Below are positions 13,946-57,160 of a stretch of 64,000 nucleotides of DNA, piece after piece. The notes under the pieces were generated by a model. That model ran no database searches. It had not been told where the DNA came from and was given only the letters and a program-made list of their open reading frames with translations. The DNA lies in NCBI GenBank assembly GCA_026874595.1, contig CM049308.1, forward strand, positions 21,117,867 to 21,181,866. Direction: 5' to 3'. This DNA comes from Sipunculus nudus. Its lineage: Eukaryota; Annelida; Sipuncula; Golfingiida; Sipunculidae. The first letter of the stretch is position 1; every line of letters starts with the position of its first letter. Both the position numbers and the translations under genes were made by a program.

Positions 13946-14529
13946 GTATGTTCAGATATGTTGGATAATAATTTTTCAAGTCATATTGGATAAACAGTTG
14001 TGTTTATGTGGTAAGAACTTCACGGAATTAGTAATATCTTACTTGTAAGCATGCGCAGATGAAATGTAAATAGAAGGTGTTTCTTTAAAATGAAACAAAT
14101 TTTATTTTCGAAGTTTGACAATTGTGACAAGTAGTCCCGGCCAACCCCATAATCCCAAACTGGAAGAAGTTCGTTTTGAGTCGAAGCGACCCCTGGCGGA
14201 AGGGTGGCTGTTACCCGACGCACTTATGTCTGAGAGCAGCGGGCCTTTTGTTGTGGCAGGAACTGGTCTAGAGACTTCTTGTATTTGTGCACGGGACTTC
14301 CCGGGTTTGTCAATAATCACTTGGGAAGATCAGAGTTGGGTAAGGGCATGGAATTACGATGGAGAACCTGAGGACAGTTTCTTGGTGGTCATCTATCTGC
14401 GGACCATTAAGTGGCCATTGGACCCGTATCTACCAAGCACAAGCCGGAAAAACGCTTTTAGGAACAGCGCGCCCTCATCCGCAATTAATAGAAGAAGCGT
14501 TCAATACAATGGATATTCTTCTCTCACAG

Positions 14530-14668
14530 GAGCTGCTTACCCCTTGCATATGGAAGCCGTGGTCTATATAGAAGCGGGAAAGGTCGCCTGCTCCGGTGTT
14601 TGTATCTCTAAGCGGGTGGTGCTCACGTGCGGGGAATGCCTTCAAGATGAAACAGTCACCAACATCAA
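14530..14668 (+). CDS. Exon 2 of serine-protease-like gene: mutated His region
   Basis: The acceptor TTCTTCTCTCACAG has a good pyrimidine tract. The phase-1 join gives NSG-AAYPLHMEAVV. The exon encodes GKVACSGVCISKR then VVLTCGECLQ. In active enzymes the latter is W-V-L-TAAHC-L with the catalytic His; here Glu stands in that position while the flanking Cys pair is kept. The donor is GTATGT at 14669, followed at once by an ATT microsatellite. The open frame extends upstream to 14115, but that part has no protease similarity and is probably intron. Confidence 0.5.
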
Positions 14669-14680
14669 GTATGTCATATA

Positions 14681-14979
14681 TTTATTATTATTATTATGAT
14701 TATTATTATTATTATCATTATCAACATCATCATAATTATAAGTAGTAGTCGTAGTATTAGTGGTATTTATAGTAGTAATTGCTGTATTCGTACTAGCAGT
14801 CGTAGTCGAGGTATATAGCATACATCTAAACAATCTAAAGAGACTGTAGAATCTGTCAATAGGACATACAAAACCCATGCAAAATATTGTTACGGTGGCA
14901 GGTAAAAATGGCAGTGGAGAATTGATGGAGGAATAAATTATTAATGAAGTATTGTACATAAAAGATATATGTTCTAAAT

Positions 14980-29724: not shown

Positions 29725-30717
29725 GCAACTTTCAAAACTGTAAACTGGTTGTAAACCAAATGCACAAGAAATCAAGCCGTGTTGTGGTTGTAAAGATGGG
29801 ACTTGCATTGCGGATGACTGTCAGTGTAAACCTTAAAGTGCACCAACTGCCTAACCACGCTCTGCAAAAACAACCAAGCTTGGTCTGAAAGATGCTGTTG
29901 ATGCACAGTCAAGGGAGTATGTGGAAAATGTTCATGTTCAACTAAAATTGTGTGTACCAGCTGCGTTCCAGCTGGATCGATGTCAAAATACAACAGAAAA
30001 TACTTCATTTGGATCTGAGGAAAGTGGTCACAGGATTGTTCACATAAATGCCCAGTCTCTGAGAAGCCAAATCAAGGTAAAAAAAAAATATAAGATCAGG
30101 AACTACTTTCTATACCTGCAGTAATGGGGACTTGGTTTAGCCAGTATAAAAGTGTTCCGAAGCAGAAATGCCTGGATGCAGTCTGTTACGAGAGGACCGC
30201 CCTACTGATTTGAAACAGAAAGTCAAGAAGAAGAAAATAGTTGAATTTATATGTTAAAGTTGGTTGCTCAAGTTGTTGATATCGAAAGTGAGGAACTAGA
30301 TTTTTCAAGAAAACAAACTATATTCTTTGGAGAAGTTAACCATCCTCTTGATATATAGGGATCATTGACTGAACATTTTAACGCACAGCTCAAGATAGCA
30401 AAGACAAAAAGTAACAAAAGTTGTGATCCTTGGAGATATCAATATTGATGGTGAAATGAAGCCTGCTCTAGATGTTATAAAAAGAGGGATGCTGACTCAA
30501 CTTGGACGCAGTAAAAGGATAGCGATACGATACTTATGGTTCTCCGGGACAACAAATTACATCAGGTGATTAAAGAAATTACAAGACCTGAAAGCCAAAC
30601 ACTGCCTGGCCTGATCTTTGTTTCCCATTCAAAGAAGGGTATTAGAGAGTAGGGTAGTCGCCGACATAAAAATAAATAACCACTCTCCTGTTGTTATCAT
30701 ATGGAAGGCCGATACGT
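29725..30717 (+). pseudogene. Decayed Cys-module/EEP gene, paralogue of 44488-47571
   Basis: The pieces occur in the order of the intact gene. They are a Cys module (CCGCKDGTC, then in another frame KCTNCLTTLC), a second Cys module with a stop in place of the Arg of CCRC (VCGKCSCSTKIVCTSC), and then GHRIVHINAQSL (intact: GHRMVHVNVGSL). Next come MPGCSLLREDRP, KQTIFFGEVNHP, VILGDINIDGEM with the GD-N-ID catalytic motif, DNKLHQVIKEITRP, LIFVSHS and NNHSPVVIIWKA. At least five frame changes or stops separate these pieces, so it cannot make the protein. It has only about two Cys modules against seventeen in the intact copy. It ends at the same place, right after IIWKA, with no reverse transcriptase. 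Confidence 0.75.
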
Positions 30718-30719
30718 AA

Positions 30720-38029: not shown

Positions 38030-40995
38030 ATGTAAAGGATCCAAACAACTGCATGTACAGGTGATCCAGGAAAGATCCAAACAACAGCAAGTAAAGGAGA
38101 TCCAAAAAAGATCCAAACAACAACATGTATAGAAGATCCAGTAAGGATCTAAAAACAGCATGTAACAGAGATCCATTAAGGATCCAAACAACTGCATGTA
38201 AAGGTGATCCAGGAAGGATCCAAACAACAGCAAGTAAAGGGGATCCAAAAAAATCCAAACAACAACATGTATAGAAGATCCAGTAAGGATCTAAAACAGC
38301 ATGTAACAGAGATCCAGTAAGGATCCAAACAACTGCATGTACAGGTGATCCAGGAAGGATCCAAACAACAGCAAGTAAAGGAGATCCAAAAAAAATCCAA
38401 ACAACAACATGTATCGAGGATCCAGTAAGGATCTAAAACAGCATGTAACAGAGATCCAGTAAGGATCAAAACAACTGCATGTAAAGGTGATCAAGGAAGG
38501 ATCCAAACAACAGCAAGTAAAGGAGATCCAAAAAAATCCAAACAACAACATGTATAGAAGATCCAGTAAAGATATAAAACAGCATGTAACAGAGATCCAG
38601 TAAGGATCCAAACAACTGCATGTAAAGGTGATCCAGGAAGGATCCAAACAACAGCAAGTAAAGGAGATCCAAAAAAAAGATCCAAACAACAACATGTATA
38701 GAAGATCCAGTAAGGATCTAAAACAGCATGTAACAGAGATCCAGTAAGGATCCAAACAACTGCATGTAAAGGTGATCCAGGAAGGATCCAAACAACAGCA
38801 AGTAAAGGAGATCCAAAAAAGATCCAAACAACAACATATATAGAAGATCCAGTGGGGATCTAAAAACAGCATGTGACAGAGATCCAGTAAGGATCCAAAC
38901 AACTGCATGTAAAGGCGATCCAGGAAGGATCCAATCAACAGCATGTAAAGGAGATCTAGCAAGGGTCCAAACAACATGTATAGAAGATCCAGTAAGGATC
39001 TAAAACAGCATGTAACAGAGATCCAGTAAGGATCCAAACAACTGCATGTAAAGGCGATCCAGGAAGGATCCAATCAACAGCATGTAAAGGAGATCTAGCA
39101 AGGGTCCAAACGACATGTATAGAAGATCCAGTAAGATCTAAAAACAACATGTAACAGAGATCCAGTAAGGATCCAAACAACTGCATGTAAAGGCGATCCA
39201 GGAAGGATCCAATCAACAGCATGTAAAGGAGATCCAAAAAAAGATCAAAACAACAACATGTATAGAAGATCCAGTAAGGATCTAAAACAGCATGTAACAG
39301 AGATCCAGTAAGGATCCAAACAACTGCATGTAAAGGTGATCCAGGAAGGATCCAAACAACAGCAAGTAAAGGAGATCCAAAAAAGATCCAAACAACAACA
39401 TATATAGAAGATCCAGTAAGGATCTAAAAACAGCATGTAACAGGGTCCAGTAAGGATCCAAACAACTGCATGTAAAGGTGATCCAGGAAGGATCCAATCA
39501 ACAGCATGTAAAGGAGATCTAGCAAGGGTCCAAACAACATGTATAGAAGATCCAGTAAGATCTAAAAACAGCATGTAACAGAGATCCAGCAAGGATCTAA
39601 ACAACTGCATGTAAAGGTGATCCAGGAAGGATCCAATCAACAGCATGTAAAGGAGATCTAGCAAGGGTCCAAACAACATGTATAGAAGATCCAGTAAGAT
39701 CTAAAAACAACATGTAACAGAGATCCAGTAAGGATCCAAACAACTGCATGTGAAGGAGATCCACTAAAAATCCAAAAAACAGCAAGTAATGGAGATCCAA
39801 AAAAGATCCAAACAACAACATGTAAAGGAGATCTAGTAAGGATTCAAGCAATATGTAAAGGAGATCCAGTAAGGACCCATAAAAAACAAAGTAAAGGGCA
39901 ACCAGTAAGGATCCTACCAACAGCATGTCAATGAGATCCAGCAAGGATCAGATCAACCGACAACATGTAAAGAAGATACAGTAAGGACCAAACAACAGCA
40001 TGGAAAGGAGATCCAGTAAGGATCCAACCAACAGCATGTTAATGAGATCCAGCAAGGATCTAACCAACCGACAGCATGTAAAGGAGATACAGTAAGGACC
40101 CATAAAAACATTACGTAAAGGGCATCCAGTAAGGATCCAACCAACAGCATATAAAGGAGATTTAGTAAGGATTCAAACAACAGCATGGAAAGGAGATCCA
40201 ATAAGGATCCAAACAACAGCAAATTAAGGAGACCCAGTAAGGATCCAACCAACAGCCTGTAAAGAAGATTTAGTAAGGATTCAAACAACAGCTTGGAAAG
40301 GACATCCAGTAAGGATCCAACCAACAGCATGTTAATGAGATCCAGCAAGGATCTAACCAACCGACAGCATGTAAAGGAGATACAGTAAGGACCCATAAAA
40401 CATCAAGTAAAGGGCATCCAGTAAGGATCCAACAAACAGCATATAAAGAAGATTTAGTAAGGATTCAAACAATAGCATGGAAAGGAGACTCAGTAAGGAT
40501 TCAAACAACAGCATGGAAAGGACATCTAGTAAGGATCAAATCAACAGCATGTAGAGGACATCCAGTAAGGATCCAACCAACAGCATGTCAATGAGATCCA
40601 GCAAGGATCTAACCAACAGACAGCATGTAAAGGAGATACAGTAAGTATCCAAACAACAGCATGGAAAGAAGATCAATTCAGGATCCAAACAACAGCATGT
40701 AAAAGAGATCCAATAAGGATCCAAACAACAGTATATTAAGGAGATTCAGTAAGTATAAAAACAACAGCATGTAATTAAATGAGATCCAGTAAGGATCTAA
40801 ACAACAGCATGTACGGGACATCTGAAGTGATCCAAACAACAGCATGTAAAGGAGATCCAGCAAGGATCCAAAAAACATGTTAAGGAGTATAATAAGGATC
40901 CAATCAACACCATGTAAAGGAGATACAGTAAGGATCTAAACAACAAATGTAAAGAGATCCAGTAAGGATCCAAACCACATCATGGAAAGGAAAGG
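38030..40995. repeat. Satellite array: 35-36 bp units in a 142 bp higher-order repeat
   Basis: The basic unit is GGATCCAAACAACAGCATG followed by TAAAGGAGATCCAGTAA, with variants. Between about 38040 and 39750 four variant units alternate in a fixed order. The AACTGCATGTA variant returns every 140-143 bp (38047, 38190, 38331, 38473, 38613). From about 39750 to 40995 the order breaks down and units diverge. Minus-strand frames of up to 260 residues across it (LDPYWISFTCC-type) come from the repeat, not from a gene. Confidence 0.95.
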
Positions 40996-43311: not shown

Positions 43312-44466
43312 GCTCTGTTATAGTTTTCACAGTCACAATACTCTTAAGGTGGTTTTCCATAAGTGCGTAGTGCGTATCCGTAGTCCGCATGCGTAGTCCG
43401 TATGCGTAGTCCGTATCCGCAAAGTTCGTTTTCCATAAGTACGTATATGCGTAGTCCGTACTCCGTATTGATATGTGCTCGAAAGCTGTTTTTTTTTTTT
43501 TTTTTTTTTTGCAAGCCATTTTACCATATATGTATTGTACATTTGTATATATTAGCATCAAAAGTTAAAAACAATAAAATTAAAAATAATAAAATTTTTA
43601 AAAGATCAAAATTAGTAATATTTTATACGTGACAGTGATGTTAACGCTTCAATCATAAAAAAAAACATGTTGTCTGTGATAAAGAAAGGAAAACAAAATT
43701 CAGCCAAATGCCAATATGTTTGGTTGCCGGAAAACTGATGCCAGAAATGACATTTGTGCCAGTTTGACATAGAGACCAGGTGCATACAGCACGGCCTGAA
43801 TGGGAAAACTCTATGGTAAACCTGAAATCGACACGATGATTGGTATGCGTAGTGCGCAAAAATAGCTCCCGGCAGCGTGCGGATACGGACTACGCATGCG
43901 GATGACGCATGCGGATGAATGGAAACGGCCCAGTTAAAAAGTCTACAAAGCGATTTTTGCGGACTACGCATACGGACTACGCATACGGACTACGGATACG
44001 GACTACGCACTTTTGGAAAAGTACCGTTAGTGTGCGTGTTTCTGTTACAGGTTTTACAGTCGTCTCAGAGTGTCTCTGCCCTCTTACAGATAACAGCTAC
44101 ATTATAGCAGTCATCCGTGTCACAGACTTTGGTTCGGTTATAATTTTACAGTCACAGGAATTTGAGGGCGCATGTCTCTGATTCAGGTTTTGCAGTCAGC
44201 GGACTTTGACAGTGCCTGGCTCTGTTAGAAGTTTTACAGTTTTACATTCATCGGACTCTGAAAATACGCGTCTCTGTTACAGGTTTTACAGTCACCGGAA
44301 TCTGAAAGTGCATGGCTCTGTCCCAGGGTTTGATTTTACAGTCAATGGAATCGGAGTACACATGTCTCTTTTACAAGTTTTACAGTCACCGGAATCTGAA
44401 AGCGCTTGGTTCTGTTAAAAGTTTCAAAGTCAAGAGACTATGACAGCGGACAGCTCTGTTACAGCT
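43312..44466. repeat. 44-50 bp degenerate tandem repeat, split by H3
   Basis: The unit is CTCTGTTACAGGTTTTACAG followed by TCACCGGAATCTGAAAGTGC with variation. One partial unit lies left of 43347 and about eight units lie at 44030-44466. Removing 43347-44026 with one TTA copy rejoins a unit in register. The array borders the 3' end of the Cys-module/EEP gene. Confidence 0.7.
43347..44026. mobile_element. Harbinger-like MITE H3 inserted in a tandem repeat
   Basis: Flanked by TTA (43344-43346, 44027-44029). Inverted ends are AGGTGGTTTTCCATAAGTGC and CGGTACTTTTCCAAAAGTGC, both followed by several GTAGTCCGTAT boxes. The interior holds a poly-T run and encodes nothing. The insertion disrupts a unit of the flanking array, so the pre-insertion site can be read directly. 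Confidence 0.75.
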
Positions 44467-44487: not shown

Positions 44488-47400
44488 TTATTCACTTTTC
44501 CATGTTATACATACTGGACTGTGATCACCTAAACCTACTGCATCTAAGCGTGGCACCGTAGTCTCAACTACTTTGTCCACATCAGAGACAAACACCAGAT
44601 CAATCAGTTTTACAAAACGGGTAGGTTCCGTTATTACCTGATGGAGACCTTTGTCACGGGGGATTGTATTCATCCTGGCCTTCCGAGAAACATCAAACAT
44701 ATCAATATTGAAGTCTCCCGATAGTACAACATTATCGTAGTTATTACAAGCGCGGGTGAGTTCCTTTTCAAAGTGATCATACCATTCAGCAGTCTCCTTA
44801 GGAGGACGATACATTGTTCCTATAAGAATGGTTTGTTTATCTGGAAAATTCACCTCTACCCAGAGTGACTCGATTTGTCCAGAGCTTATACTAGGCAACT
44901 TGCGGCATTTGTTAGAGTCTTTCACATAAAGTGCAACGCCCCCACCCAGCTTCTCACCCGGTCTGTCCTCTCGAAATAATTTGTAGCCAGGAATTTGTGG
45001 ATCTAGATCCTGCATGTTATTCTTAAACCACGTCTCAGACACGGCTAGTACTGACACTGGCTCCTTTGCCAGTAGTTCCTTTACTTTACCCATCTTATTT
45101 AACAAAGACCCGACATTAACGTGAACCATTCTGTGCCCTTGTTTCTTTAAACCAAAACCCTGCTTTACATCCTGACTTCTTAAACCTTTTCTTCTATTTT
45201 CACAGGATGGAGAAAAACAACTCGTGCAAGACCTTCCCTTCTCCGCACATACACAAGAGTTGCAGTCTCCAGACGTACATTTGCAGCAAAACATGAAACT
45301 ATCATTAACACATCGACATCCCGGAGCCTCGCAGTTGGTACAAGCTTTCCCATTTGACCCACACACACAGTTTTCACAAGCTCCGCTTCGGCAGCTACAA
45401 CACTTTTCATTCATGGCGGATAAAGATAAGTCTGATACATTTTCGCATCCCAAAGACTCACAGTTGGTACAAGCTTCCCCACTCGCTCCACACACACAGT
45501 TTTCACAAGTTCCATTTTTGCATCTACAACATTTTGCATTCTCAGAGGATATAGATGGTTTTGATGCATATTTGCATCCTGAAGACTCACAGTTGGTACA
45601 AGCTTCTCCACTCGCTCCACACACACAGTTTTCACAAGTTCCATTTTTGCATCTACAACATTTTGCATTCTCAGAGGATATAGATGGTTTTGATGCATAT
45701 TTGCATCCCGGAGACTCACAGTTGGTACAAGCTTCCCCACTCGCTCCACACACACAGTTTTCACAAGTTCCATTTTTGCATCTACAACATTTTGCATTCT
45801 CAGAGGATATCGATGGTTTGGATGCATATTTGCATCCCGGAGACTCACAGTTGGTACAAGCTTCCCCACTCGCTCCACACACACAGTTTTCACAAGTTCC
45901 ATTTTTGCATCTACAACATTTTGCATTCTCAGAGGATATAGATGGTTTTGATGCATATTTGCATCCTAAAGACTCACAGTTGGTACAAGCTTCCCCACTC
46001 GCTCCACACACACAGTTTTCACAAGTTCCATTTTTGCATCTACAACATTTTGCATTCTCAGAGGATATAGATGGATTGGATGCATATTTGCATCCCGGAG
46101 ACTCACAGTTGGTACAAGCTTCCCCACTCGCTCCACACACACAGTTTTCACAAGTTCCATTTTTGCATCTACAACATTTTGCATTCTCAGAGGATATAGA
46201 TGGTTTTGATGCATATTTGCATCCCGAAGACTCACAGTTGGTACAAGCTTCCCCACTCGCTCCACACACACAGTTTTCACAAGTTCCATTTTTGCATCTA
46301 CAACATTTTGCATTCTCAGAGGATATAGATGGATTGGATGCATATTTGCATCCCGGAGACTCACAGTTGGTACAAGCTTCCCCACTCGCTCCACACACAC
46401 AGTTTTCACAAGTTCCATTTTTGCATCTACAACATTTTGCATTACCAGAGGATATAGGTGGTTTTGATGCATATTTGCAACCCGGAGACTCACAGTTGGT
46501 ACAAGCTTCCCCACTCGCTCCACACACACAGTTTTCACAAGTTCCATTTTTGCATCTACAACATTTTGCATTCTCAGAGGATATAGATGGTTTTGATGCA
46601 TATTTGCATCCTGAAGACTCACAGTTGGTACAAGCTTCCCCACTCGCTCCACACACACAGTTTTCACAAGTTCCATTTTTGCATCTACAACATTTTGCAT
46701 TCTCAGAGGATATCGATGGTTTTGATGCATATTTGCATCCTGAAGACTCACAGTTGGTACAAGCTTCCCCACTCGCTCCACACACACAGTTTTCACAAGT
46801 TCCATTTTTGCATCTACAACATTTTGCATTCTCAGAGGATATCGATGGTTTTGATGCATATTTGCATCCTGGAGAATCACAGTTAGTACACGCCATCCCT
46901 TTCACTCCGCATGCACACCCTTCACAATTCCCAGTTTTGCATCGGCAACATTTTCCATTCAATGCTTGGCTACCTGCACCTGTAGTTTTTGAACCGTGCT
47001 GGCTTTGCTTGGTCTTGCTTTGGATATTATTGCAAGACGGTGATTCACAACTTGTACACCCTCTTCCTTTCAATCCACATGCGCATGATTCACATTTACC
47101 ACTTTTGCACTTGCAGCATCTAACAACGGCTGGTTTACTGGAAGATCCACCAGCGTATGCTCTTTTACTGTTATGTGAAGTTGATGGAAGCCCAGCTGTA
47201 TACCCATAGGAAGATCTCAGTGATGTGGAATTCGTACAGCCTGATGAAGAACAGTTGACACAAGCTTCACCTTTGAGTGCGCATGCGCATGAATCACAAC
47301 TTCCTGTTCTGCACCTGCAACACGTGTTTGTAGATTGTTGCCTGTATTCTGCTGATGGTCCGCTGGTATAACTGATGTTGTATCCTGATGAGATGCCGTA

Positions 47401-47571
47401 TGCTGCACTGCTGTGGTATGACGACGTTGAGCTGCTTGTATATCCGCATGCTGATGCTCCGCCTGCGTTGGTGCAACCCGGGGATGCGCAGTTTGTACAA
47501 GCGCCACCACTCCTTGCGCATACACATGACGTGCAACTTCCGCTCTTACAACGACAACATCTGCTGCTCAT
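44488..47571 (-). CDS. Cysteine-rich tandem-module protein fused to an EEP endonuclease domain
   Basis: An uninterrupted 1027-codon frame. Residues 5-790 hold 17 modules with spacing C-C-x-C-x4-C-x2-C-x-C-x6-C-x2-C-x4-C (nine Cys each). Modules 1-3 have long Ser/Gly/Tyr-rich linkers; modules 4-15 (208-723) repeat every 43 residues, nearly identical; 16 and 17 diverge. The spacing resembles metal-binding CXC (tesmin/TSO1) or metallothionein clusters, so zinc binding is likely but inferred. Residues 812-1027 are an EEP nuclease of the retrotransposon type. Expected catalytic positions are present: N819, E846 in SETW, Y921, D953 and N955 in GDFN, D991, D1016-H1017 in GDHS. The protein stops after ITWKSE with no reverse transcriptase. 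The ATG at 47571 follows an A-run; a minus-strand acceptor-like TTTCTTTGCAG lies about 220 bp upstream. It could be a domesticated LINE endonuclease or a mobile-element protein. Confidence 0.8.
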   Translation of the reverse strand: MSSRCCRCKSGSCTSCVCARSGGACTNCASPGCTNAGGASACGYTSSSTSSYHSSAAYGISSGYNISYTSGPSAEYRQQSTNTCCRCRTGSCDSCACALKGEACVNCSSSGCTNSTSLRSSYGYTAGLPSTSHNSKRAYAGGSSSKPAVVRCCKCKSGKCESCACGLKGRGCTSCESPSCNNIQSKTKQSQHGSKTTGAGSQALNGKCCRCKTGNCEGCACGVKGMACTNCDSPGCKYASKPSISSENAKCCRCKNGTCENCVCGASGEACTNCESSGCKYASKPSISSENAKCCRCKNGTCENCVCGASGEACTNCESSGCKYASKPSISSENAKCCRCKNGTCENCVCGASGEACTNCESPGCKYASKPPISSGNAKCCRCKNGTCENCVCGASGEACTNCESPGCKYASNPSISSENAKCCRCKNGTCENCVCGASGEACTNCESSGCKYASKPSISSENAKCCRCKNGTCENCVCGASGEACTNCESPGCKYASNPSISSENAKCCRCKNGTCENCVCGASGEACTNCESLGCKYASKPSISSENAKCCRCKNGTCENCVCGASGEACTNCESPGCKYASKPSISSENAKCCRCKNGTCENCVCGASGEACTNCESPGCKYASKPSISSENAKCCRCKNGTCENCVCGASGEACTNCESSGCKYASKPSISSENAKCCRCKNGTCENCVCGASGEACTNCESLGCENVSDLSLSAMNEKCCSCRSGACENCVCGSNGKACTNCEAPGCRCVNDSFMFCCKCTSGDCNSCVCAEKGRSCTSCFSPSCENRRKGLRSQDVKQGFGLKKQGHRMVHVNVGSLLNKMGKVKELLAKEPVSVLAVSETWFKNNMQDLDPQIPGYKLFREDRPGEKLGGGVALYVKDSNKCRKLPSISSGQIESLWVEVNFPDKQTILIGTMYRPPKETAEWYDHFEKELTRACNNYDNVVLSGDFNIDMFDVSRKARMNTIPRDKGLHQVITEPTRFVKLIDLVFVSDVDKVVETTVPRLDAVGLGDHSPVCITWKSE
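45403..46950 (-). repeat. 129 bp coding tandem repeat, 12 units
   Basis: Twelve consecutive units, each exactly 129 bp (43 codons), encode modules 4-15 of the Cys-rich protein. The central units differ at only a few sites (for example Ser/Pro/Leu before GCKY, and Lys/Asn in ASKP). Such homogeneity implies recent unequal exchange or gene conversion, and copy number is probably variable between alleles. The plus strand is also open over the array, an effect of the repeat having no stop on that strand. Confidence 0.95.
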
Positions 47572-47574
47572 TTT

Positions 47575-48540
47575 TTTTTTCTCAGGAGCAAAAGCTCAGT
47601 AAATAAAGTTCGTTTCCTTGAGGTACTATAATGTCAACTTTGTCTTTTATCTAAATATGTAATAAATTCACTGCTGACTGTCCATGGAAATTATACAAGG
47701 TCCTTAGTTCACAACAACAATGTGGATGTATAGTTTCTCCAGTTAATAGTCAAATGTAGTAGTACTTTTCTTTCTCTTTGCTCAAGAGGTACCTGCAAAG
47801 AAATTAGATATATGGGTAATATAATTATCACTTATAATAGTTATAATTGTTAAAAATAAAAACACTCGGGAGGCAATGTAATAAGTGGCCCATCGGTCAC
47901 GGAGCTCAGCTTAGCATAATATATGCCCTTCAGGTTCGAAGGCTGGGGGTCAGGGTGTTCCTCCGCCGAGCATCTGAATTTCACCTGTCGTATACAGAAA
48001 TACTATATTACGACATAATCATACAGAGATTTATATGCAACTCATCTGTCATTTTCCATGTCCTGGCATGGAGGGATCGTTTCTGTACCAACATTACTTA
48101 AGCTCTCTTTTCTGTAGTTGTGTCACGGCTGTAGACTGCAAGTAGGCCTATAGAGTTCAACATTTATTTTAACATCCGAAACGAGTATCAAACAACCCCT
48201 TTACTGTACAGGGTGATTATTGCCGATTGACAGGAGGAAAAGTGGAAATAGTCGACCCCCCCCCCCCCCCTACGCCACCCTAACACACACACACAGATAA
48301 CAGCAATACGGCAATACGGATGATGTAATCCAAGGTAACTTTGTCAATATGGCTAAAGGTACACACATATCAAGGGCCAAAACCTAGCTTGATTATATCA
48401 GTAAAATAAATAATGCGTTAAATAAACGTCATGAACACAAAACAAAATCAACTAACAATTAACCAGGTAAGTGTTTTTATTAGAATTTTTAATTGGTTGG
48501 TGTTGGTGTTCTAAATAAACGGAGATCTTATATATGTTTT
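47575..48540. other. Upstream region of the Cys-module/EEP gene; no other gene seen
   Basis: Holds a possible minus-strand splice acceptor (TTTCTTTGCAG at about 47795) and a family A-type right end (GGCCCATCGGTCACGGAGC near 47888). A GGTTCGAAGGC at about 47932 looks like a B box, but no A box was found. A poly-C tract is at 48256. Confidence 0.4.
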
Positions 48541-53767: not shown

Positions 53768-53867
53768 TTGGTCCATTCGAAGTGGCCTTCCATCTTGAAG
53801 CTAGTTTTTGATGACCACGGCTACCCTAGTGCTGTGACCTCAAATCCTGCTATCCTGCATGACTTGA

Positions 53868-55797
53868 CACGGGCAAGGGAAGGCCCCGTCACATTTTTGT
53901 GAACACTGGGCACAGGTATAAGGATAGGCCCTATCACATATATGTGTAGACTGGACACAGGCAAGGGAAGGCCTCGTCACATTTTTGTGAACAATGGGCA
54001 CAGGTATAAGGATAGGCCCTATCACATATATGTGTAGACTGGACACAGGCAAGGGAAGGCCCCGTCACATTTTTGTGAACACTGGGCACAGGTATAAGGA
54101 TAGGCCCTATCACATATATGTGTAGACTGGACACAGGCTAGGGAAGGCCTCGTCACATTTTTGTGAACACTGGGCACAGGTATAAGGATAGGCCCTATCA
54201 CATATATGTGTAGACTGGACATAGGCAAGGGAAGGCCTCGTCACATTTTTGTGAACACTGGGTACAGGTATAAGGATAGGCTCTATCACATATATGTGTA
54301 GACTGGACACAGGCAAGGGAAGGCCTCGTCACATTTTTGTGAACACTGGGCACAGGTATAAGGATAGGCCCTATCACATATATGTGTAGACTGGATACAG
54401 GCAAGGGAAGGCCTCGTCACATTTTTGTGAATACTGGGCACAGGTATAAGGATAGGCCCTATCACATATATGTGTAGACTGGACACAGGCAAGGGAAGGC
54501 CCCGTCACATTTTTGTGAACACTGGGCACAGGTATAAGGATAGGCCCTATCACATATATGTGTAGACTGGACACAGGCAAGGGAAGGCCCCGTCACATTT
54601 TTGTGAACACTGGGCACAGGTATAAGGATAGGCCCTATCACATATATGTGTAGACTGGACACAGGCAAGGGAAGGCCCCGTCACATTTTTGTGAACACTG
54701 GGCACAGGTATAAGGATAGGCCCTATCACATATATGTGTAGACTGGACACAGGCAAGGGAAGGCCCCGTCACATTTTTGTGAACACTGGGCACAGGTATA
54801 AGGATAGGCCCTATCACATATATGTGTAGACTGGACACAGGCAAGGGAAGGCCCCGTCACATTTTTGTGAACACTGGGCACAGGTATAAGGATAGGCCCT
54901 ATCACATATATGTGTAGACTGGACACAGGCAAAGGAAGGCCTCGTCACATTTTTGTGAACACTGGGCACAGGTATAAGGATAGGCCCTATCACATATATG
55001 TGTAGACTGGACACAAGCAAGGTAAGGCCCCGTCACATTTTTGTGAACACTTGGCACAGGTATAAGGATAGGCCCTATCATATATATGTGTAGACTGGAC
55101 ACAGGCAAGGGAAGGCCCCGTCACATTTTTGTGAACACGGGGCACAGGTATAAGAATAGGCCCTATCACATTTTATTGAAGACTGAATACAGGCAAGGAA
55201 AGGCCCCGTCATATTTTTGTGTAGACTGGACACAGACAAGGGAAGGCTCCGTCACATTTTTGTGAAGACTGGACACAGGCAAGGGAAGGCCCCGTCACAT
55301 TTGTGTGAACACTGGGCACAGGTATAAGTATAGGCCCTATCACATATATGTGTAGACTGAATACAGGCAAGGAAAGGCCCCGTCATATTTTTGTGTATAC
55401 TGGACACAGGCAAGGGAAGGCCCCGTCATATTTTTGAGAAGACTGGACACAGGCAAGGGAAGGCCCCGTCACATTTTTGTGAAGACTGGACACAGACAAG
55501 GGAAGGCCCCGTCATATTTTTGTGAAGACCGGACACAGACAAGGGAAGGCCCCGTCACATTTTTGTGAAGACTGGACACAGACAAGGGAAGGCCCCGTCA
55601 CATTTTTGTGAAGACTGGACACAGGCAAGGGAAGGCCCCGTCACATTTTTGTGAAGACTGGACACAGGCAAGGGAAGGCCCCATCACATTTTTGTGAAGA
55701 CTGGACACAGGCAAGGGAAGGCCCCGTCACATTTTTGTGAAGACTGGACACAGGCAAGGGAAGGCCCCGTCACATTTTTGTGAAGATTGGACACAGG
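53868..55797. repeat. Satellite array: 88 bp dimer units passing into 43 bp monomers
   Basis: From 53868 to about 55180 about 15 units of 88 bp alternate two related halves. One half has GGCAAGGGAAGGCCCCGTC and TCACATTTTTGTGA; the other has GGTATAAGGATAGGCCC and CACATATATGTG. From about 55180 to 55797 mainly the first half repeats with a 43-44 bp period. Every half carries a short palindrome. The staggered 68-residue minus-strand frames (THICDRAYPYTC) are repeat artefacts. Confidence 0.95.
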
Positions 55798-55799
55798 AA

Positions 55800-57160
55800 G
55801 GTGCCAAGAGTCAGATCTAGTTACCTGTACCAGGAGGCATGTGTTGGTCCCTGTTCGTGTGTGTTTTCTCAACATAACTCGCACAATTTTGAATGGAATC
55901 TCATTAAATTTTCATGCAAAGCCTTTCGGAAATGGGTTTATGAAGAATCGATTAAATTTTGTGGATCCGGCACATGACCCGGATTCAGGATCCCACAACA
56001 GGGACACCCACATGAAGGAGGCTTGCATTCCTTAGAATGCAGATTTCTATTCATACTTGACACAAATCCTCTTGATAATTCATTGGTTGTAGCAGTATAA
56101 TATAGTACTATCAGCAGTAGAAGTAGTGGTTACTGAAATGATACTTCACCTTTATATATATGATAAGGTTCAGGACTCCACACACGTAATTCATATTTCC
56201 TCCTCGTACCGGATGCCATAAATTAGAAAAAGTATCAGGCGTAACACGTTTTGGGTTCAAAGCATTCGCCAGATAAACATGAATGTCGCACTAAGGGCCC
56301 TTCTTTTTCCACATTTCAACACTCGTATTCTGGGAAACCTTAAAGTCATTCGGGAAGCAAGTTTCCCAGAATGTTAGTGAAAGTATTTGTCCTGACACTA
56401 AACTGACGTCATGCATGGGCCTCATTTCAGGATGGATAGAGGGAACCTTAAATGAGTTTTTGTTTTTGTTGGATTTTTTTTTTTTGGGGGGGGGGGATAC
56501 AAAGTACATTTTCCCACTCATTTTTTTTAATTTCGATATACTTCTGTCAATCAGCCTATATTTGGTTTCATTTTCCACAATTACCTAACAGTTACACACT
56601 TCATTCCGAGAAAATGTGAGATACTGCTTGAATAGATTAGCCCATTTAATCTTCATAAATGTTGTTGAATGTTTAAATAAAATATAATGTAGAGTCGAAA
56701 ACTAAGTATAATTATTTAACATATAACGAAAATACATGTCCAATAATATGTGATGGGAGTGAAGAACGTTATGATATTCTGAGAGAGGTATTTATCACGT
56801 TCGCCATGCAGGGTGGTTGGGCGTACATGTAAATAGACGAATAAGTAGTATTTTATAATAGGCTGGTAAGCCTAACTTGAGCCATTACGCTGGTCGCAGA
56901 CTAAATTGTCTAAATTAATCGGGGATGAGCGTTCTATCTGCCGGTATAACTACCTTATAAGGGCATTTCAAGTAATTATTGCGGCCGAATATGTGGAGGT
57001 AAGGTCTGGGTTCCTAGTGAATCTGTCAGCTATTGTTTCGTTGCTTATCACAGCAGAACTCAACAGTTTCAGTAATATAACCTACCAAAACTAATGAGCT
57101 TCGTATTTTCGAGGGTTAAGTGTTAACAAGTTGTTGACATATTTTCAGTTACCACGTAAA
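55800..57160. other. No gene seen
   Basis: Contains GGAGGCTTGCATTCCTTAG with AATGCAGATTTCTA at about 56016-56050, also present at about 15358-15392, and a G-run near 56480. Otherwise unassigned. Confidence 0.45.

Follow-up and report, generated by a model that had tools for sequence, protein, structure and literature searches.

Within a 64,000-nucleotide stretch of the Sipunculus nudus genome (hereafter the window) lies an intact gene whose product joins 17 nine-cysteine modules to an endonuclease/exonuclease/phosphatase (EEP) domain of the style found in LINEs, and which ends without a reverse transcriptase (RT). Paralogues of the same design are found on the same contig, no RT was detected near them, and codon comparisons point to past constraint on the protein. 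On balance, we favour viewing these loci as a small, locally duplicated host gene family in which a LINE-derived EEP domain, lacking RT, stands behind a zinc-cluster array.

Structure of the intact frame

The gene occupies the minus strand as a single open frame of 1027 codons and a stop, running from an ATG at 47571 to a TAA at 44488-44490 (Table 1). On the plus strand, the same span and frame contains stops throughout; a 661-aa plus-strand frame was considered as a gene and rejected, being the repeat array in reverse reading. The encoded protein consists of the cysteine modules, a short linker, and the EEP domain, after which translation stops.

The EEP domain was recognized by the Pfam profile PF03372 over residues 818-1012, corresponding to profile positions 4-219 of 225 (E 1.2e-8 with the whole protein). 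With the EEP part alone the match improved to E 4.7e-10 and 40.0 bits, against a cut-off of 24.5, which places it within the EEP superfamily profile. PF14529 scored 26.9 bits, slightly below its cut-off of 27.4, and NCBIfam gave only weak exonuclease III matches, far under cut-off. Residues N819, E846, Y921, D953, N955, D991, D1016, and H1017, which we take to be the catalytic residues of the domain, are all present. Neither viral contigs, scanned with the whole protein and separately with the EEP part, nor PHROGs profiles returned anything useful.

A preliminary description of this DNA had reported one 1027-codon frame with 17 cysteine modules and an EEP domain, with a stop directly after the EEP and no RT in frame. 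The regular cysteine spacing, the PF03372 match, and the position of the TAA bear this out; the coordinates given were correct, and the strand, which had not been named, is the minus strand. The EEP letters listed there all occur at their assigned positions; the domain as a whole is better called "near-complete".

Table 1. Features of the window discussed in the text, with the evidence for each.
Feature	Position	Strand	Basis
Intact frame, 17 nine-cysteine modules and EEP	44488..47571	-	open frame, PF03372 match, cysteine spacing
17-module nine-cysteine array, residues 5-790	45202..47559	-	cysteine spacing
Modules 5-15, near-identical 129-bp units, residues 251-709	45445..46821	-	TRF, module alignment
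EEP domain, about residues 812-1027 (Pfam match 818-1012)	44491..45138	-	Pfam, residues
AG of acceptor-like site, possible 5' leader intron (putative)	47793..47794	-	221 nt before ATG
Decayed copy: remnants of 2 modules, EEP, stop at matching place	29779..30719	+	blastn

Paralogues on the same contig

A search of the animal's own 1.43-Gb genome produced 47 match rows (45 scored of 1042 first-look candidates), five of which represent the window gene itself and two further module-EEP loci on the same contig (C3). One of these (L003/L009, C3:21235605-21237119) lies about 70 kb from the window gene and is open over 515 codons from stop to stop; its product begins MPESCCEC, contains seven nine-cysteine modules followed by an EEP domain for which PF03372 and PF14529 both exceed their cut-offs, and ends after CITWDKKR. 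The other (L002/L010, C3:21518538-21520049) carries one TGA and is 99.7% identical to L009 over at least 9.9 kb, with 9 mismatches and 3 gap openings in total. Within the frame five codons are changed (one silent, three missense, and one nonsense), and L010 is either a recent duplicate of L009 or an unresolved haplotype. The two regions (C3:21231000-21240999 and C3:21514000-21523999) are some 283 kb apart, and five of the nine base mismatches fall inside the 1548-bp frame.

A fourth copy, decayed by several stops and frameshifts, was found within the window itself, where its blastn alignment with L009 (982 columns, 60%, E 3e-51) takes in the complete EEP and, ahead of it, the final third of the module region. 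Its absence from the genome-search rows indicates that the search overlooks weak copies. The family thus comprises at least four detected copies, all within 0.37 Mb of C3: two intact (window and L009), one with a stop (L010), and one decayed; this count is a lower bound, as weak copies elsewhere may be missed. Local scans covered the window and the 49 kb up to L009, leaving out the 273 kb between L009 and L010, and found no further copy in those 49 kb. The clustering of the family is accordingly a statement about one partial genome search together with these local scans.

The preliminary description had allowed that the frame could be a piece of a LINE whose RT was lost only in this copy. That idea is rejected: the architecture recurs in an intact, diverged paralogue and in the decayed copy, and both of these likewise have their stop where the EEP domain ends. 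A single damaged LINE copy is likewise excluded because the same genome holds the intact paralogue, its duplicate, and the decayed copy.

Evidence of constraint

The window and L009 EEP domains share 106 of 220 residues (48%), and their differences are distributed 93/59/135 over the three codon positions. For this pair pN is 0.353 and pS 0.732 (dN about 0.48, dS about 2.8); the bootstrap range of pN/pS is 0.39-0.59, with 0 of 2000 replicates at or above 1, which is evidence of purifying selection between the intact copies drawn from one EEP pair with dS near saturation. Within the array of the window gene (modules 1-4, 16, and 17, with module 5 standing for the homogenized block), pS exceeded pN in all 21 pairs, and both TGT and TGC occur in every one of the nine cysteine columns of these seven modules. 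Retention of the cysteines is not independent evidence because the modules were picked by them; the silent changes are. These codon patterns show that the protein has been under past constraint, although an active mobile element would equally give a low pN/pS.

Such constraint bears on the idea that the gene is a young or dying duplicate without function, open by the chance of recent amplification and heading for decay. The codon changes separating L010 from L009 would suit this idea, as would the lack of any AATAAA or ATTAAA within 1500 nt after the stop of the window gene, but neither the window gene nor L009 has an interrupted frame despite the extent of their EEP divergence, and with pN/pS well under 1 we consider it highly improbable.

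Signals and repeats around the gene

The end of an acceptor-like site, TATCTAATTTCTTTGCAG, falls immediately before 47792, close to the position (about 47795) to which the preliminary description had pointed; one further ATG lies between this site and the ATG of the frame. L009 has one poly(A) hexamer 79 nt after its stop; within 600 nt of its ATG, it has no comparably scoring acceptor-like site. Taken together, these signals speak both for and against a transcription unit.

Inverted repeats bounding the window gene were sought and rejected, the arms that straddle it being only 14-17 nt long. The strong inverted arms that were found (74 nt, 89% complementary) are built of CGTAGTCCGTATCCG-type units and belong to a separate, dispersed repeat at 43340-44033, a copy of which, 83% alike over 670 columns, lies at 9351-10000 of L015, one of the LINE-like loci considered below. 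Imperfect 44/94-bp tandem repeats (TTCCGGTGACTGTAAAACCTGTAACAGAG...) occupy 44143-44432, beginning some 55 nt beyond the gene's stop. Elsewhere in the window, 36-bp units nested in 139-bp units with strong AT skew extend over 38035-40991, where a 260-aa minus-strand frame is a by-product of the tandem array, and 22 copies of a locally G+C-rich 88-bp unit extend over 53861-55801. A frame at 14094-14699 shows weak similarity to trypsin in one stretch (PF00089, E 0.007, under the cut-off) and is possibly a serine protease exon or remnant.

Relationship to LINEs of the same genome

The other 42 of the 47 genome-search rows are EEP matches elsewhere, and three of them extend back to query residues 753-776, where the zinc knuckles of LINE ORF1 align. 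Eleven of the 42 were viewed in 10-kb context, and all 11 were LINE-like. Eight have a YxDD motif in frame after the EEP (in L020 across one stop), and RVT_1 (Pfam) was found in the three of these eight so tested; L011, L014, and L015 have broken frames resembling the same LINE family. Identity between the window EEP and the LINE EEPs of this genome is 34-39%. In an EEP tree with a midpoint root, flagged long branches, and no non-LINE EEP among its rows, the window and L009 domains form one clade (99/97) that excludes the eight LINE rows, which were drawn from four families. The LINE family nearest by path (family A; L012/L013) has an ORF2 that begins CNRRIKG, after the ORF1 zinc knuckles, and this resembles the CENRRKG linker of the window protein; the resemblance is a lead for the donor only.

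RT regions from four LINE families served as tblastn queries, and with them a control LINE locus was recovered across families (2e-69 to 5e-104). No match better than E 0.33 turned up in the window, in the 49 kb beyond it, or in the 10 kb around each of L009 and L010.

The preliminary description had left two options, a domesticated retrotransposon endonuclease or the protein of an unfamiliar mobile element. In its fuller form the second would make these loci a mobile or formerly mobile element, LINE-like or non-autonomous and nearly extinct, which combined a cysteine array with an EEP and took its RT from elsewhere. The LINE style of the EEP, including the above-threshold PF14529 match in L009, is in keeping with this, as are the LINEs with both EEP and RT in the same genome and the fact that one copy is decayed and another stopped. 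Domestication is nevertheless favoured because the detected copies, at least four, all lie within 0.37 Mb, no inverted repeats bound the gene, and no RT is found nearby. It also tells against a mobile element that the duplication represented by L010 reaches beyond the gene alone and that two diverged copies remain intact, and we regard that explanation as unlikely.

The cysteine modules

All 17 modules follow the spacing CC-x-C-x4-C-x2-C-x-C-x6-C-x2-C-x4-C, and 153 of the protein's 158 cysteines sit within them. TRF reported 94% matches among the units of modules 5-15; their near-identity implies that recent tandem amplification produced much of the length of the array. Modules 1-4, 16, and 17 are diverged. 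The summed net charge of the 17 module cores is -2, against +27 for the whole N-terminal part, and the positive charge therefore sits in the spacers. A predicted module structure (pLDDT 55.9, pTM 0.27) was too poor for use.

Searches of PDB by phmmer with the EEP and with the modules gave best E values of 0.86 and 0.16, to unrelated proteins, and the Pfam CXC profile had no match up to E 10 in the module stretches. A profile built from 14 diverse modules placed LIN54 (5fd3) first in PDB at a non-significant E 5.4, with a Bowman-Birk inhibitor next (E 8.6). In the LIN54 alignment eight of the nine module cysteines were matched in each of the two CXC repeats of LIN54. Among 20000 composition-keeping shuffles, 5 reached the real score for the first of the two repeats and 103 for the second; permuted inter-cysteine gaps did so in 466 and 46 of 20000, and shuffles of everything but the cysteines in 262 and 2039 of 5000. 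These modest outcomes are uncorrected for the prior choice of LIN54 as best PDB match. From these outcomes, the likeness between the modules and LIN54 is mainly one of spacing. The modules probably function rather like a CXC zinc cluster, without assignment to the CXC family, and we infer that each is probably organized around roughly three clustered zinc ions.

A cysteine-rich array of this kind could also be a metal-binding (metallothionein-like) or structural device, with the EEP as a passenger phosphatase or nuclease serving some unrelated purpose. The metallothionein beta domain likewise has nine cysteines per unit, arranged in an M3Cys9 cluster (PMC3447885, in part) that nine cysteines per short module would fit, and the module cores are net-neutral. 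Against metallothionein profiles, however, three module stretches had no hit up to E 10, and both intact paralogues, about half identical in the EEP, retain its residues. We consider this explanation improbable. Unlike the beta domain, the modules here form a long repeat array joined to a nuclease domain.

A possible mode of action

If the loci are indeed a host gene family, an EEP of LINE ORF2 type, without its RT, would sit behind an N-terminal nine-cysteine array, each module of which would hold about three zinc ions in a CXC-like manner. The array might grip nucleic acid by means of numerous weak contacts, leaving the EEP to nick the strand so held. Any benefit to the host would perhaps be exercised against the LINEs of its own genome, or in repair. 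Counting against this reading are the missing poly(A) hexamer in the 1500 nt that follow the window gene, the net-neutral module cores, and the stopped and decayed copies. The arrangement suggests a captured nuclease. A more specific version, which we put forward tentatively and consider rather doubtful as a whole, is that of a new kind of host nuclease in which a LINE endonuclease stands behind a tandem array of a previously undescribed CXC-like zinc cluster, with a front cysteine replacing ligand 8. Array length (7 or 17 modules) would have been varied by tandem duplication to give nucleic-acid-holding arms of unequal length, and the protein would possibly be a weapon against the LINEs from which it came.

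A LINE endonuclease preserved intact without RT and attached to a zinc-cluster array able to expand would, if real, represent an unusual form of nuclease; it would also allow a direct test of LINE endonuclease function once freed from retrotransposition.

Comparison with known systems

CXC (tesmin/TSO1) domains, as in LIN54 and MSL2, and pre-SET domains likewise have nine cysteines in about 30 residues. By alignment with LIN54, eight of the nine positions correspond, but the modules lack CXC Cys8 and have an extra cysteine ahead of Cys1, and the profile match, as given above, is not significant. CXC domains occur as one or two repeats, compared with 7 or 17 here. An Asn two residues after Cys9 is described as a signature of the CXC superfamily (PMC3447885, in part), and an Asn at two residues after the last cysteine is found in 5 of 17 window modules and 5 of 7 L009 modules. 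In LIN54 a tyrosine reads the minor groove (PMC4974476, in part); on reading of all 24 modules (17 window and 7 L009), this DNA-reading Tyr is absent from each.

With the endonuclease of LINE ORF2 (PF03372/PF14529), the window protein shares a LINE-style EEP. In LINE ORF2 an RT comes after the EEP, whereas here the stop follows. The types of LINE ORF1 listed in the available part of PMC4120745 are PHD, RRM, CCHC, esterase, transposase-22, and zinc finger/leucine zipper, and the N-terminal cysteine array stands in place of these.

Host genes built from LINE coding sequence appear rare. The architecture described here was not found in open-access literature, as covered by titles and the starts of abstracts, and the string "domesticat" is absent from the main text, as partly available, of a survey of bivalve LINEs (PMC10294476). 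L1TD1 is a LINE-1-derived mammalian gene that has been lost in some lineages, and a 2014 paper describes it as unique among known domesticated genes in deriving almost entirely from LINE-1 (PMC4161310, in part). It derives from ORF1, not from the endonuclease, and the accessible part of the same paper describes no such cysteine array for it; L1TD1, whose sequence comes from a LINE protein, is the closest host-gene precedent for the family described here.
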